The notes under the pieces were generated by a model. The model was not told where the DNA came from. It was given only the letters and a program-made list of their open reading frames with translations, and did not search any database. Below, piece after piece: positions 53,689 to 59,309 of a DNA stretch of 64,000 nucleotides. Made by a program: the position numbers and the translations under genes. How positions within the stretch are numbered: position 1 is the stretch's first letter; each line of letters begins with the position of its first letter. Source of the DNA: Methylobacterium oryzae (lineage in GTDB: Bacteria > Pseudomonadota > Alphaproteobacteria > Rhizobiales > Beijerinckiaceae); contig NZ_CP090349.1 in NCBI RefSeq assembly GCF_021398735.1, forward strand, positions 5,702,001 through 5,766,000, written 5' to 3'.

Positions 53689-53839
53689 AGCACCTTGGGG
53701 TTGTGTAACTGCGCTGGACCGGCCGCGATTTCCCCTGTGAGTCCGGCGCGCCGGGGGCCACGGGGCACCCGCGCGTGAAGGCGCCGGCACCCGAGCAGGA
53801 GCGACGCCGGCCCGACCGGGGGCGCTCGAGGAGGCCGTG

Positions 53840-55156
53840 ATGAAGATCCTGATCGCCGCGACGCCGCTCACCGGCCACGTGAACCCGCTCCTCGCCATCG
53901 GTCGGACGGTGGCGGCCCGGGGGGACGACGTCCTCGTGCTCACCGACCCGGCCTTCCGGCCGAAGGTCGAGGCGGCGGGCCTGCGCTTCACGCCCTACGC
54001 GGACAACCACGCGGCCGAGTACCGCGAGACCGAGCTGCCGGCCGGCCCGGAGCGCTACCGCCGCGAGTTCGAGCGGCGGTTCGTGGATCCGATGCCGGTC
54101 CAGGCCGCCGCCCTGCGGGCGCTGATCGCGGCCGAGGCGCCCGACGTGATCCTGGCCGGCAGCATGTTCCTGGGCGCGCTGCCGCTGCTGCTCGACAGCG
54201 CGCCGCGGCCGCCGATCGTGACCGTCAACGTCAGCATCCTGTTCCTCGACCGGCCCGACCACGCGCCCGTGGGCCTCGGCCTGCCGCCGGCCCGCGACCG
54301 GGACGATCTCGTCCGCTACGCGACCCTGAAGGCCGGCATGGACGCGGCCTTCGTCAACCCGGTGCGGGCCTACACGGACGCGAAGCTCGCCGCGCTCGGC
54401 CTGCCGCCCCTGCCGGCGTCCCTGCCCCACTCGATCGTGGTCCTGCCGGACCTGTTCCTGCAGCCGACCGTGCCGGGCTTCGAGTACGAGTACGGCACCC
54501 TGCCGCCCGGCCTGCGCTTCATCGGCCTGCTCGATCCGCCGACGCCGCCCGCGCCGCTCCCGGACTGGTGGCCCGATCTGGAGGCGGCGAACGCGGCGGG
54601 CCGGCCCGTCGTGCTGGTCACCCAGGGCACACTGGCCAACGCGGATTTCGGCGAGCTGGTCGAGCCGACACTGACCGCCCTGGCCGACCGGGACGATCTG
54701 CTGGTCCTGGCCACCACCGGCGGCCGCCCGGTGGACGCGCTGAAGGTTCCGGTCCCGGCCAACGCCCGGGTGTCGTGCTTCCTGCCGTTCCGCGAATTGC
54801 TGCCGCGGGTGAGCGTGCTGGTGACCAACGGCGGCTACGGCAGCGTCTCGCAGGCGCTCGCCGCCGGCGTGCCGATCGTGTCGGCCGGCCTGACCGAGGA
54901 CAAGGCGGAGGTGAACGCGCGCATCGGCTGGTCCGGCGTCGGGATCAACCTCGGGACCAGCGCGCCGGCCCCGGAGGCGGTCGGCGCCGCGGTGGCGCGG
55001 GTGCTCGGCGAGCCCGACTTCCGGGCGCGCGCCGGGGCGCTGCGGGACGCCTTCGCGGCCCGGGACGCCATGGCGTCGATCCTGACGGCTCTGGACGATC
55101 TCGCGCGCGCCGGGACCGATGCCGGGACCGCGCGCCGGCTGGCGAGGTCGGCGTGA
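53840..55156 (+). CDS. MGT-type family 1 glycosyltransferase
   Basis: 438 residues. The N-terminal ILIAATPLTGHVNPLLAIG contains the catalytic His typical of UGT/macrolide glycosyltransferases. The C-terminal donor-binding part has VLVTQGTLANADFGELVEPTL and LVTNGGYGSVSQALAAGVPIV, a variant of the HGGxGT donor loop (the His is Asn here). It probably moves a sugar from a UDP- or dTDP-sugar to a small hydrophobic acceptor. ATG 53840, with GAGGAGG before it, is chosen over GTG 53837. Its TGA overlaps the ferredoxin ATG. First gene of the P450 operon. Confidence 0.88.
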   Translation: MKILIAATPLTGHVNPLLAIGRTVAARGDDVLVLTDPAFRPKVEAAGLRFTPYADNHAAEYRETELPAGPERYRREFERRFVDPMPVQAAALRALIAAEAPDVILAGSMFLGALPLLLDSAPRPPIVTVNVSILFLDRPDHAPVGLGLPPARDRDDLVRYATLKAGMDAAFVNPVRAYTDAKLAALGLPPLPASLPHSIVVLPDLFLQPTVPGFEYEYGTLPPGLRFIGLLDPPTPPAPLPDWWPDLEAANAAGRPVVLVTQGTLANADFGELVEPTLTALADRDDLLVLATTGGRPVDALKVPVPANARVSCFLPFRELLPRVSVLVTNGGYGSVSQALAAGVPIVSAGLTEDKAEVNARIGWSGVGINLGTSAPAPEAVGAAVARVLGEPDFRARAGALRDAFAARDAMASILTALDDLARAGTDAGTARRLARSA

Positions 55157-55392
55157 TGCCGGCCTCCGACACCGCGGCGCTCCGGGTCGTCGTGGATCTC
55201 AACCGCTGCCAGGGCTACGCCCAGTGCTGCTACGCCGCGCCGGACGCCTTCGCGATCCGCGGCCACGAGATCCTGTTCTACGATCCCGCGCCGCCGGCCG
55301 ATCGCCGCGGCGCCATCGAGCGGGCCGTGCAGGCCTGCCCGGTCCGCGCCATCAGCCTCCAGGCCGGCCCGGACGACGGAGACGCGCCGTGA
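55156..55392 (+). CDS. Small [3Fe-4S]-type ferredoxin
   Basis: 78 residues. Cys18 and Cys24 in LNRCQGYAQC and Cys61 in ACPVRAI give the C-x5-C...C-P pattern of single-cluster ferredoxins that feed P450s; a Tyr replaces the middle Cys of a [4Fe-4S] motif. It should take electrons from the reductase just downstream and pass them to the P450. It is joined to the glycosyltransferase by TGATG and to the reductase by GTGA. GTG 55153 is an alternative start. Confidence 0.92.
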   Translation: MPASDTAALRVVVDLNRCQGYAQCCYAAPDAFAIRGHEILFYDPAPPADRRGAIERAVQACPVRAISLQAGPDDGDAP

Positions 55393-56714
55393 CCCCCGAA
55401 CCCGCCGGCATCGTCGTGGTCGGCGCCTCCCTCGCCGGCCTGCGCGGCGCCGAGACGCTGCGGCGGGGCGGGTACGACGGCCCGCTCACGCTGGTCGGCG
55501 CCGAGCCGTACCGGCCCTACGACCGGCCGCCCCTGTCGAAGCACGTGCTCGCCGGGGAACTCGCCGCCGACGCGACCCGGCTGCCGGAACTGGCGGATCT
55601 GCGCGCCCGCTGGCGTCTCGGGAGCCCGGCCGTCGCCCTCGACCGGGCAGCCCGCACGCTCCGGCTCGCCGACGGGTCGGCGCTGGCCTACGAGGCCCTG
55701 CTCATCGCCACCGGCGCCGAGGCCCGGCCCTGGCCGGCCGAGACCGGCGGCGGGCTCGCCGGCATCTTCACCCTGCGCGGGCGCGACGACGCGGCCGCCC
55801 TGCGGGACGCCCTGCTGGCGCGCCCGCGGCAGGTGCTCATCGTCGGCGGCGGCCTGATCGGTTGCGAGGCGGCCTCCTGCCTGCGCGACCTCGGCCTGCC
55901 CGTGACCCTGATCGACCCGAACGCCGCGCCCCTGGCCCGGGGTCTCGGGACCTTCGTCGGCGGCGTGATCGCCGAGCGTTTGCGCGAATCCGGCGCCACG
56001 TTCCACCCCGGCACGATGGTGCGGGCGTTCGAGGGCGACGCGGCGGGGCACGTCGCCCGGGCCCGGCTGGCGGACGGCAGCACCGTCGAGACCAACCTCG
56101 TCATCGCCGCCCTTGGGGCGACCCGGGCGACGGGCTGGCTGCGGGGCGCGGGCCTGCGCGCCGATGCCGGCGGCGTGACCTGCGACGCCGCCTGCCGGGT
56201 CCTCGACGCCGACGGGGTGCCCTGCCCGGACATCTACGCCGCGGGCGACGTCGCTCGGTGGCCGATCCCGCTCTACGGCAATCGGCTGATCGCCGTGGAG
56301 CACTGGGGCAACGCCGTCGAGCAGGCCGCCCACGCCGCGCGCAACATGCTGGCCGGCCCCGGCGAGCAGCGCCCCTACGGCCACCTGCCGGCCTTCTGGT
56401 CGAGCCAGTTCGGGATCAACATAAAGCTGGTCGGCCTCCCCGACGGCGCCGATTCCGTCGCGGTGGTGCAGGGGTCGCGGGCGTCCCGCCGCTTCCTCGC
56501 CGTCTACGGACGCGCCGGGCGCAGCATCGCGGCCGTCTCGTTCGATCAGGCGCGCTGGCTGCCGGCCTACGCGGAGGCGATCACGGCCGGCGACCCGTTC
56601 CCGCCGATCACCGACGCCACCGACCGGCCGCGCGTCGAGATGGCGGCCCCGGGCTTCCCGACACCGCGCCGCGCCGCCCCGGCGCCGCCTTCCACCGAGG
56701 CCGTCCATGTCTGA
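55389..56714 (+). CDS. NAD(P)H-dependent ferredoxin reductase (FAD)
   Basis: 441 residues. The FAD-binding IVVVGASLAGLRGAETLRRG, the PYRPYDRPPLSK motif of rubredoxin/putidaredoxin-reductase types, the NAD-binding VLIVGGGLIGCEAASCLRDLGL and CPDIYAAGDVARW are visible, with a C-terminal reductase dimer domain. It delivers electrons to the ferredoxin. GTG 55389 (TPEPAGIVVVG) overlaps the ferredoxin stop as GTGA. Its end overlaps the P450 start by 8 bp. Confidence 0.93.
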   Translation: MTPEPAGIVVVGASLAGLRGAETLRRGGYDGPLTLVGAEPYRPYDRPPLSKHVLAGELAADATRLPELADLRARWRLGSPAVALDRAARTLRLADGSALAYEALLIATGAEARPWPAETGGGLAGIFTLRGRDDAAALRDALLARPRQVLIVGGGLIGCEAASCLRDLGLPVTLIDPNAAPLARGLGTFVGGVIAERLRESGATFHPGTMVRAFEGDAAGHVARARLADGSTVETNLVIAALGATRATGWLRGAGLRADAGGVTCDAACRVLDADGVPCPDIYAAGDVARWPIPLYGNRLIAVEHWGNAVEQAAHAARNMLAGPGEQRPYGHLPAFWSSQFGINIKLVGLPDGADSVAVVQGSRASRRFLAVYGRAGRSIAAVSFDQARWLPAYAEAITAGDPFPPITDATDRPRVEMAAPGFPTPRRAAPAPPSTEAVHV

Positions 56715-57948
56715 CGACGCGCTGTTCGCCGCCGTGATGGATCCGGCCAACCGGGCCGACCCGTACCCGCTCTATCGACGGTTGCGGCAGCAGCCGGTCT
56801 CCCGCCAGCGCGACGGCAGCTACGTCGTCTCCACGCACGCGGCGATCCGCAGCCTGCTGTTCGACCCGCGGCTCAGCTCCGAGGATCTGCCACCGCCTCG
56901 GCGGCCCCGCACTGGCAATCCGCTCAAGGACCTGATCCTCAACCCGATCAAGAACCGCATCAGCGCCACGCACCGCCCGTTCATCTTCCGCGATCCCCCG
57001 GACCACGACCGGCTGCGCAGCCTGGTGATGCGGGAATTCTCGATCGCGCGGGTTCAGGCGCTGCGGCCGCGGATCGCCCGGGAGGTGGACGGCCTGATCG
57101 ACGCCTGCCGGGACCGGCGGGAGGTCTGTCTCGTGAGCGACCTCTCCTACCCGCTGCCGGTGACGGTGATCTGCGAGCTGCTCGGCGTGCCACGCGAGGA
57201 CGAGCCGCGGTTCCAGGCCTGGGCGACGCAGCTCGCCACGGCCGTCGAGCCGGACGCGCGCCACGACGACGCGACCCGGCGCCAGATCGTCGGCGCCTTC
57301 GACGAGATCGCCGCCTACATGCGCGACCTCATCCGCGAGAAACGGCGGCGCCCGGCCGACGACATGCTGAGCGGCCTCGCCGCCCCCGGTCCGGACGGCC
57401 GGAAGCAGATGAGCGACTTCGACCTCCTGTCGACGGCGGTCCTGCTGCTGGTCGCCGGTCACGAGACCACCGTGAACCTCATCACCAACGCCATGCTGAC
57501 CCTGCTCCGGCACCCCGAGGAGCTGGAGCGGCTCCGGGCCGATCCGGAGCGCGCGCCGCGGCTGATCGAGGAGGTCCTGCGCTACGAGCCGCCGGTGCAC
57601 TTCCGGACCCGCAAGGCCCTCGGCGCGATCGCGGTGGCCGGCGAGATGATCCCCAAGGGGGCACCCGTCATCCTGATGTTCGCCGCCGCGAACCGGGATC
57701 CCGACCGGTTCGCGGAGCCAGACCGCTTCGATCCCGACCGGGGCGACATCGAGCATTTCGGCTTCGGCGGGGGCCTGCACTACTGCGTCGGCGCGCCCCT
57801 GGCGCGGCTCGAGGCCGAGATCGCCCTGGTGGCGCTGAGCCGCCGCCTCGTCGCCCCGCGGCTCGCGGTCGATCCGCCGCCCTACCGGCCGGGCGCGTCG
57901 CTCCGGGGGCCCGAGCAGCTCGGCATCGGCATCGACGGGATCGCCTGA
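56707..57948 (+). CDS. Cytochrome P450
   Basis: 413 residues, soluble bacterial P450. I-helix AGHETT (250-255), ExxR E289-R292 (EEVLRYEPP), and heme-binding FGFGGGLHYCVGAP with the thiolate Cys360. It inserts oxygen into an unknown substrate using the ferredoxin and reductase encoded just before it. ATG 56707 overlaps the reductase stop by 8 bp. The family assignment and the link to a glycosyltransferase suggest hydroxylation followed by glycosylation. A parS-like site follows 46 bp later. Confidence 0.96.
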   Translation: MSDDALFAAVMDPANRADPYPLYRRLRQQPVSRQRDGSYVVSTHAAIRSLLFDPRLSSEDLPPPRRPRTGNPLKDLILNPIKNRISATHRPFIFRDPPDHDRLRSLVMREFSIARVQALRPRIAREVDGLIDACRDRREVCLVSDLSYPLPVTVICELLGVPREDEPRFQAWATQLATAVEPDARHDDATRRQIVGAFDEIAAYMRDLIREKRRRPADDMLSGLAAPGPDGRKQMSDFDLLSTAVLLLVAGHETTVNLITNAMLTLLRHPEELERLRADPERAPRLIEEVLRYEPPVHFRTRKALGAIAVAGEMIPKGAPVILMFAAANRDPDRFAEPDRFDPDRGDIEHFGFGGGLHYCVGAPLARLEAEIALVALSRRLVAPRLAVDPPPYRPGASLRGPEQLGIGIDGIA

Positions 57949-57993: not shown

Positions 57994-58009
57994 TGTTTCA
58001 CGTGAAACA
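57994..58009. other. parS-like centromere site
   Basis: TGTTTCACGTGAAACA is a perfect 16-bp palindrome identical to the well-known ParB-binding parS consensus. It lies in the 185-bp gap between the P450 and the alcohol dehydrogenase, outside any gene. I saw no second copy in the window. ParB spreading and SMC loading would happen here if real. Confidence 0.8.
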
Positions 58010-58133: not shown

Positions 58134-59309
58134 ATGAAGGCATTGTGCTGGCACGGCCGCAACGACATCCGCTGCGACACGGTCCCGGATCCGGTCATCG
58201 AGGATTCCCGCGACGTCATCATCAAGGTGACGAGCTGCGCGATCTGCGGCTCGGACCTGCACCTGATGGACGGCCTGATGCCGACCATGAAGAGCGGCGA
58301 CGTCCTCGGCCACGAATTCATGGGCGAAGTCGTCGAGGTCGGACAGGGCTTCACCAAGTTCAAGAAGGGCGACCGGATCGTGGTGCCCTTCAACATCAAT
58401 TGCGGTGCATGCCGGCAGTGTAAGCTCGGCAACTTCTCGGTCTGCGAGCGGTCGAACCGCAACGCCGAGATGGCGGCCGCGCAGTTCGGCTACACGACGG
58501 CCGGCCTGTTCGGCTACTCGCACCTCACCGGCGGCTACGCGGGTGGCCAGGCCGAGTACGTGCGCGTGCCCATGGCGGACGTCGCCCCCATGAAGGTGCC
58601 GGACGGCATGGACGACGAATCCGTCCTGTTCCTCACCGACATCCTGCCCACCGGCTGGCAGGGCGCCGAGCACTGCGAGATCCGGGGCGGCGAGACGATC
58701 GCGGTCTGGGGCACCGGCCCGGTCGGCATCTTCGCGATCCAGTCCGCGAAGATCATGGGGGCCGAGCGGATCATCGCCATCGAGACCGTGCCCGAGCGGA
58801 TCGCCCTGGCCAAGAAGGCCGGTGCCACCGACGTCATCGACTTCATGAACGAGGACGTGTTCGAGCGGATCAAGGAGATCACCAAGGGCCAGGGCGCCGA
58901 CGGCGTGATCGACTGCGTCGGCATGGAGGCGAGCGCCGGCCACGGCGGCCTCACCGGCATGCTGTCGACGGTGCAGGAGAAGCTCACCGCCACCGAGCGC
59001 CCCTACGCGCTGGCCGAGGCCATCAACGCGGTCCGCCCCTGCGGGATCGTCTCGGTGCCGGGCGTCTACGGCGGCCCGATTCCGGTCAACATGGGGGCGA
59101 TCGTCCAGAAGGGCCTGACCCTCAAGAGCGGCCAGACGCACGTGAAGCGCTACCTCGAGCCGCTGACCAAGCTGATCCAAGAGGGCAAGATCGACATGAC
59201 CTCCTTGATCACCCACCGCTCGCAGGATCTCGCGGAGGGCCCGGACCTCTACAAGACCTTCCGCGACAAGAAGGACGGCTGCGTGAAGGTGGTGTTCCAC
59301 CTGAACTGA
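58134..59309 (+). CDS. Zinc-dependent alcohol/formaldehyde dehydrogenase
   Basis: 391 residues. Catalytic zinc ligands Cys38 (ICGSD), His60 and Glu61 (GHEF) are present, structural zinc Cys at 90, 93, 96 and 104. A glycine-rich GTGPVGIFAIQSAKIMG forms the NAD fold, and GGYAGGQAEYVRVPMAD with LTDILPTGW links it to glutathione-independent formaldehyde dehydrogenases and related class III-like enzymes. ATG 58134 (MKALCWHGRND) has GGAGAG upstream. In a methylotroph it might handle formaldehyde or other aldehydes. Confidence 0.9.
   Translation: MKALCWHGRNDIRCDTVPDPVIEDSRDVIIKVTSCAICGSDLHLMDGLMPTMKSGDVLGHEFMGEVVEVGQGFTKFKKGDRIVVPFNINCGACRQCKLGNFSVCERSNRNAEMAAAQFGYTTAGLFGYSHLTGGYAGGQAEYVRVPMADVAPMKVPDGMDDESVLFLTDILPTGWQGAEHCEIRGGETIAVWGTGPVGIFAIQSAKIMGAERIIAIETVPERIALAKKAGATDVIDFMNEDVFERIKEITKGQGADGVIDCVGMEASAGHGGLTGMLSTVQEKLTATERPYALAEAINAVRPCGIVSVPGVYGGPIPVNMGAIVQKGLTLKSGQTHVKRYLEPLTKLIQEGKIDMTSLITHRSQDLAEGPDLYKTFRDKKDGCVKVVFHLN

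Follow-up and report, generated by a model that had tools for sequence, protein, structure and literature searches.

Chromosomal parS sites of the ParABS systems of Bacillus subtilis, Caulobacter and Pseudomonas are 16-bp palindromes built on GTTTCAC/GTGAAAC, which lie near the origin in intergenic or coding DNA. In Caulobacter the five strongest parS sites fall within 5 kb (PMC5815017), and most bacteria are described as keeping parS within 5-40 kb, and wide scattering as limited to few lineages and seemingly at odds with the avoidance of SMC collisions (PMC8357415). For S. coelicolor and L. innocua 22 origin-near sites are named (PMC5815017), and in P. aeruginosa parS is reported to have to fall inside a region of ~650 kb surrounding oriC (PMC5098823). 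Another palindromic site, the Noc-binding site (NBS), is read by a paralogue of ParB (PMC7383237). Among the matches listed in our literature search, no title concerned chromosomal parS in Methylobacterium or the number of parS sites in related species, and a word search of an article on alphaproteobacterial repABC parS (PMC9040568) found no mention of Methylobacterium.

Here, we analyzed a window of 64,000 nucleotides from the Methylobacterium oryzae chromosome C1 (C1:5702001-5766000; 5,981,570 bp, assumed to be circular), for which the original prediction had proposed a parS-like palindrome in an accessory intergenic gap. The palindrome is located in the 185-bp gap between a cytochrome P450 gene and an alcohol dehydrogenase gene, and the features of this region are the following.

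57994..58009, no strand: putative parS site TGTTTCACGTGAAACA, exact consensus, counterpart in 25 of 25 syntenic loci
56707..57948, plus strand: cytochrome P450 gene (PF00067, Pfam), accessory neighbour, stop 45 bp before the putative parS
58134..59309, plus strand: zinc-dependent alcohol dehydrogenase gene adh (PF08240 and PF00107, Pfam), start 124 bp after the putative parS

Both the exact match to the ParB consensus, which came with the original prediction and which we take to be the parS consensus, and the perfect palindromy of the 16 bp were verified in the window sequence; the letters are presumably the parS form and not the NBS form. No other match with up to three mismatches was found within the window. 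Dinucleotide shuffles of the window (n = 100) contained 0.03 matches on average, with at least one match in 3 of the 100, and the reversed 16-mer used as control had no match with up to two mismatches in the whole genome, which agrees with the proposal that a match by chance is very unlikely. As had also been proposed, the palindrome has no parAB gene near it in the window: none of the four ParB_N matches of the genome (E ≤ 0.001) lies inside it. Upstream of the palindrome, positions 53837-57948 encode in a row a glycosyltransferase (EryCIII-like C-terminal domain), a 4Fe-4S ferredoxin, a ferredoxin reductase (Pyr_redox_2/Reductase_C) and the P450 (Pfam); this row looks like a self-contained P450 operon.

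From these and the following sequence comparisons, we regard the palindrome as an almost certain parS centromere site. More specifically, we assign a probability of about 0.92 to the reading that it is a working chromosomal parS, that is a nucleation site of the ParB CTPase, and the outermost left-arm member detected of an array of ~10 sites spread over ~1 Mb around the origin.

Whole-genome pattern search in the 6.65-Mb genome yielded three exact copies, six copies with one mismatch and one copy with two mismatches (C1:305424), all ten on chromosome C1 and none on the four other contigs. The nine sites with at most one mismatch span an arc of 981 kb (16.4% of the chromosome) that includes parAB, and none of 20,000 random placements of nine sites was as tight. 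One of the exact copies (C1:50191) falls in the coding sequence of rsmG, at 1.6 kb from the ParB_N match of the chromosome. On the right arm the outermost site lies at 759 kb, and on the left arm no site was found further out than that of the window. The sequences flanking the ten copies are mutually unlike. The copies are thus confined to one cluster here instead of being scattered genome-wide, whereas one relative, G029, does scatter them (see below). It had been expected that further copies would cluster near dnaA/parAB, which applies to parAB and not to dnaA, since the latter is located ~1.1 Mb from parAB.

The strongest of the four ParB_N matches (114 bits, C1:51800) belongs to the chromosomal ParB gene, which is ~0.27 Mb from the window site if C1 is circular. 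This gene is preceded by parA and rsmG (GidB, PF02527), and parAB together with the rsmG parS occupies 50.2-52.6 kb. The encoded protein contains the domains ParB_N, HTH_ParB and ParB_C (Pfam), and among proteins of solved structure Caulobacter ParB (6t1f) is its best match in sequence. Alignment with 6t1f showed that the GERRWR stretch, which is linked to CTP binding, is present. All eight residues published as contacting parS are retained (Q162, G170, K171, S172, R173, N178, G201 and R204; residue list from PMC7383237), with the chain numbering of 6t1f taken to be 10 below that of the article, a shift inferred from the motif and from the article's RTAG code. Position 184, which according to PMC7383237 varies among ParBs, is N. 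A cognate ParB with conserved parS-reading residues, as known ParABS systems have it, is therefore encoded in the genome. At the positions of the Noc signature (Q173/K179/K184/R201) the protein reads R, T, N and G, so that it has R173 and G201 like ParB, whereas Noc has Q173 and R201 (PMC7383237); the nucleoid_noc model scored 212.5 bits, under its cut-off of 315.

The position of the origin had to be approached indirectly. GC skew was too noisy and weak in the sampled chromosome to show it; therefore the strand bias of GGGNAGGG, which we take to be a polarity motif, was used. In 60 sampled stretches this motif was mostly on the plus strand from ~0.26 to 3.3 Mb and mostly on the minus strand from ~3.4 to 5.9 Mb, and its running sum over 35 stretches joining 5.93 Mb to 0.55 Mb without gaps was lowest at ~70 kb. 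Since the polarity switches close to 70 kb and again close to 3.3 Mb, the replication origin is likely near parAB. A drop in GC content between 90 and 260 kb blurs the switch, so that polarity places the origin between about 0.05 and 0.26 Mb only; the window site lies ~0.29 Mb to its left, or up to ~0.48 Mb if the switch is at the far end of the blur. Relative to the predicted origin the array is off-centre. Of the proposal that the palindrome marks an origin-proximal domain and a segregation centre, the first part holds, but the window site is one of ~10 and no centre of its own. Compared with the zone of ~650 kb described for P. aeruginosa (PMC5098823), and taking 70 kb as the origin, the window site lies near the edge and the outermost right-arm site well outside.

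Two gene markers of the origin were tried and rejected: dnaA is located at C1:4.95 Mb, off the polarity switch, and hemE (URO-D family) at 364 kb, off the minimum of the running sum. Two equal weak DnaA-domain matches (26.9 bits each) were seen at C1:225788 and 1034176, which are presumably duplicated transposon ATPases. The stretch C1:90001-260000, which adjoins parAB and the predicted origin, has ~64-68% GC compared to ~72% around it and looks like a large island. Base composition was also unusual elsewhere, most sampled stretches being near 70% GC: the contig end (C1:5950001-5981570; L121 and L071) has ~78% GC with a GC skew of -0.12 in L071, and 46% GC at C1:2350001-2370000 (L042) and 54% at C1:480001-500000 (L025) likely indicate foreign DNA.

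To compare the locus between genomes, a DNA search with the adh region, adh being the anchor for finding syntenic loci, was carried out across 111 genomes of the genus, which gave 40 loci. Each of the 25 syntenic loci, in which the adh protein is 91-99% identical, contains a single site (11 exact, 14 with one mismatch); M. fujisawaense, M. longum, M. mesophilicum and M. brachiatum are among the named relatives whose adh is 92-96% identical. The 15 remaining adh loci, with an adh identity of at most 89.8%, showed no site within two mismatches; 13 of these controls come from few-site genomes and two are the second adh copies of G090 and G095, and one, L165, comprises only 3.3 kb of upstream DNA. 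This split is not explained by adh identity alone, since all 25 syntenic loci have at least one further neighbour gene in common with the window, whereas among the controls only L153 shares neighbours, a P450 and a piece of the reductase on the opposite side of adh. The site is thus retained at the corresponding place in relatives, as is expected of a chromosomal parS.

The location of the palindrome, with the P450 stop 45 bp before it and the adh start 124 bp after it, and its capacity to fold as a hairpin would also suit an operator or terminator hairpin for these genes that resembles parS by convergence. A T-run does not follow the palindrome in the window, and the distance from site start to adh start ranges from 139 to 7698 bp over the 25 loci (139-382 bp in eight, 1421-1549 bp in 16 and 7698 bp in one). 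Moreover, the site is retained where the P450 gene was not found, rsmG holds another copy in its coding sequence, and the ten sites of this genome have flanks without mutual likeness. We consider such an operator or hairpin very improbable. The presence of the site in 25 of 25 syntenic and 0 of 15 control loci, despite absence of the P450 or a spacing of 7.7 kb, argues strongly against both chance and a P450/adh operator.

Several loci differ in their layout. In L130-L132 and L137-L149 the site is 1.42-1.55 kb from adh, unlike in the set with 139-382 bp. In L133 (G034:C5:38900-54900) the parS-adh spacing of 7.7 kb corresponds to an insertion of roughly 6-7.5 kb, and P450 and parS are still adjacent. 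L146, L148 and L149 contain a second parS-like or half-site stretch just upstream of the conserved parS, possibly a route of site multiplication or a helper site for ParB.

Arrival of the site on a mobile element, or along with the accessory P450 operon, would account for the 14 of 25 syntenic loci in which the site directly follows the P450 gene. This gene is indeed accessory, being present in only 15 of the 25; the palindrome, in all 25, is not, so that the proposed accessory gap applies to the gene and not to the site. The site is still there in ten syntenic loci in which the P450 was not found; nine of these comprise 11.8 kb or more of upstream DNA, the tenth only 3.8 kb. In G097 the P450 is ~6 kb further upstream while the site is 382 bp from adh, and the finding that each of the 25 loci has at least one further neighbour gene in common with the window likewise speaks against co-transfer. 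This explanation is already largely refuted and the least credible of those considered.

A further possibility is that the palindrome is a relic or surplus parS, still touched by ParB but without a role in fitness. A single site near the origin is reported to suffice in other bacteria (PMC7022226), and 52 of the 111 genus genomes counted have exactly one site. However, a copy with zero or one mismatch is present in every one of the 25 syntenic loci, while each 60-bp flank is only 44% identical to the window across the syntenic copies, and a neutral relic would be expected to diverge as much as the flanks; we therefore regard a relic as unlikely. The identity of the 16-mer across these copies is 96.5%, of which at least 93.75% is built in, since the copies were chosen at up to one mismatch.

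The array itself was then compared in close relatives. In G043 and G095 each of the 17 further sites coincides to the base with a site of the M. oryzae genome; 15 have the same letters, and the other two correspond to the two-mismatch site C1:305424. Among relatives assembled into one to nine contigs, the sites span 13-23% of the chromosome in G095, G043, G071, G066 and G103. In G066, which is deep in the window's clade, six of the 11 sites were compared, of which four match neighbourhoods of M. oryzae sites (67-91% identity), one matches weakly (31%) and one not at all. The single-contig genome G029, by contrast with the confinement found in M. oryzae, has 11 sites over 50% of its chromosome (232 of 20,000 random placements were as tight), with one parS site 3.26 Mb from parB. 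This scatter is due to either misassembly or heavy rearrangement, which are indistinguishable because the sampled GGGNAGGG polarity of G029 is scrambled too.

At least one site with up to one mismatch was found in 110 of the 111 Methylobacterium genomes, the exception being 70% complete, while the reversed pattern was absent from all 111. Site numbers are 6-11 in the 26 genomes found to contain the window locus. Of the other 85, only part of which were checked for this locus, 79 have 0-3 sites and six have 5-9 (G007, G018, G022, G058, G073 and G077). In each of 12 few-site genomes (one to three sites, one to six contigs) one site lies at a distance of 1.6-1.7 kb from the best ParB_N match. G064 has a single site 1.6 kb from its ParB_N match.

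A tree was calculated from the RsmG, ParA and ParB proteins, which represent one locus, of 31 chosen genomes: M. oryzae, 13 of the 25 further genomes having the window locus, all six remaining many-site genomes and 11 of the 79 with 0-3 sites. ParB of the 30 relatives is 63-99% identical to that of M. oryzae. Multi-site arrays occur in three groups of this tree, namely the window's clade (14 genomes, parted from the two-site genome G096 with a support of 0.41; 1.0 with G096 included), G058+G073 (0.997) and G022+G018+G077+G007 (1.0), and Fitch parsimony required three changes. Among 14 stretches that surround sites of G022 and G007, the two containing rsmG share close protein neighbours with M. 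oryzae sites; two others gave weak matches of 37-38% and ten gave none. Five site stretches are common to G022 and G007. Expansion of the array as one event was set aside, given the three changes and the mostly unshared stretches of G022 and G007. We tend to favour the interpretation that a one-site rsmG-parAB centromere expanded at least three separate times within Methylobacterium into arrays of 5-11 sites, which in the window's lineage, the only one in which the spread is measurable (the other two groups are draft genomes), cover ~1 Mb and have been kept in place despite gene turnover. In G007, G018, G022 and G077 (L312-L315) we observed that rsmG contains a pair of parS copies 233 bp apart, of which the second has one mismatch.

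Taking established ParB biology as a guide, ParB dimers would load at the window site via the helix-turn-helix, close with CTP and slide onto the adjoining DNA. ParA-driven segregation probably acts mainly on the rsmG/parAB site, and the distant sites including that of the window would most likely be extra loading points for ParB and SMC that fold the origin domain; for the window site we infer this SMC-loading role. Genome comparison shows that the site is held in place while neighbour genes turn over, for which selection may be the cause.

By kind, the window site is an ordinary parS, and the many-site arrays beside few-site relatives are the interesting part. It resembles the parS of the ParABS systems named above in its palindrome, its origin-near position and its ParB with the contacting residues kept, but ~10 sites are spread over ~1 Mb here. 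Like the scattered arrays of Bacilli, Streptomyces and Listeria, the array has many sites over a large origin domain; here, however, some lineages of one genus are multi-site and most others have one to three sites. Lineages with related parAB loci within one genus thus carry either one to three or five to eleven sites. If repeated expansion is true, the genus offers a natural experiment for asking why parS sites are multiplied and scattered in some bacteria. The expansion of centromere-like regions has been called an interesting biological question (PMC5815017), and a comparison of few-site and many-site Methylobacterium would make this question, as well as that of the cost of scattering with respect to SMC, directly testable.
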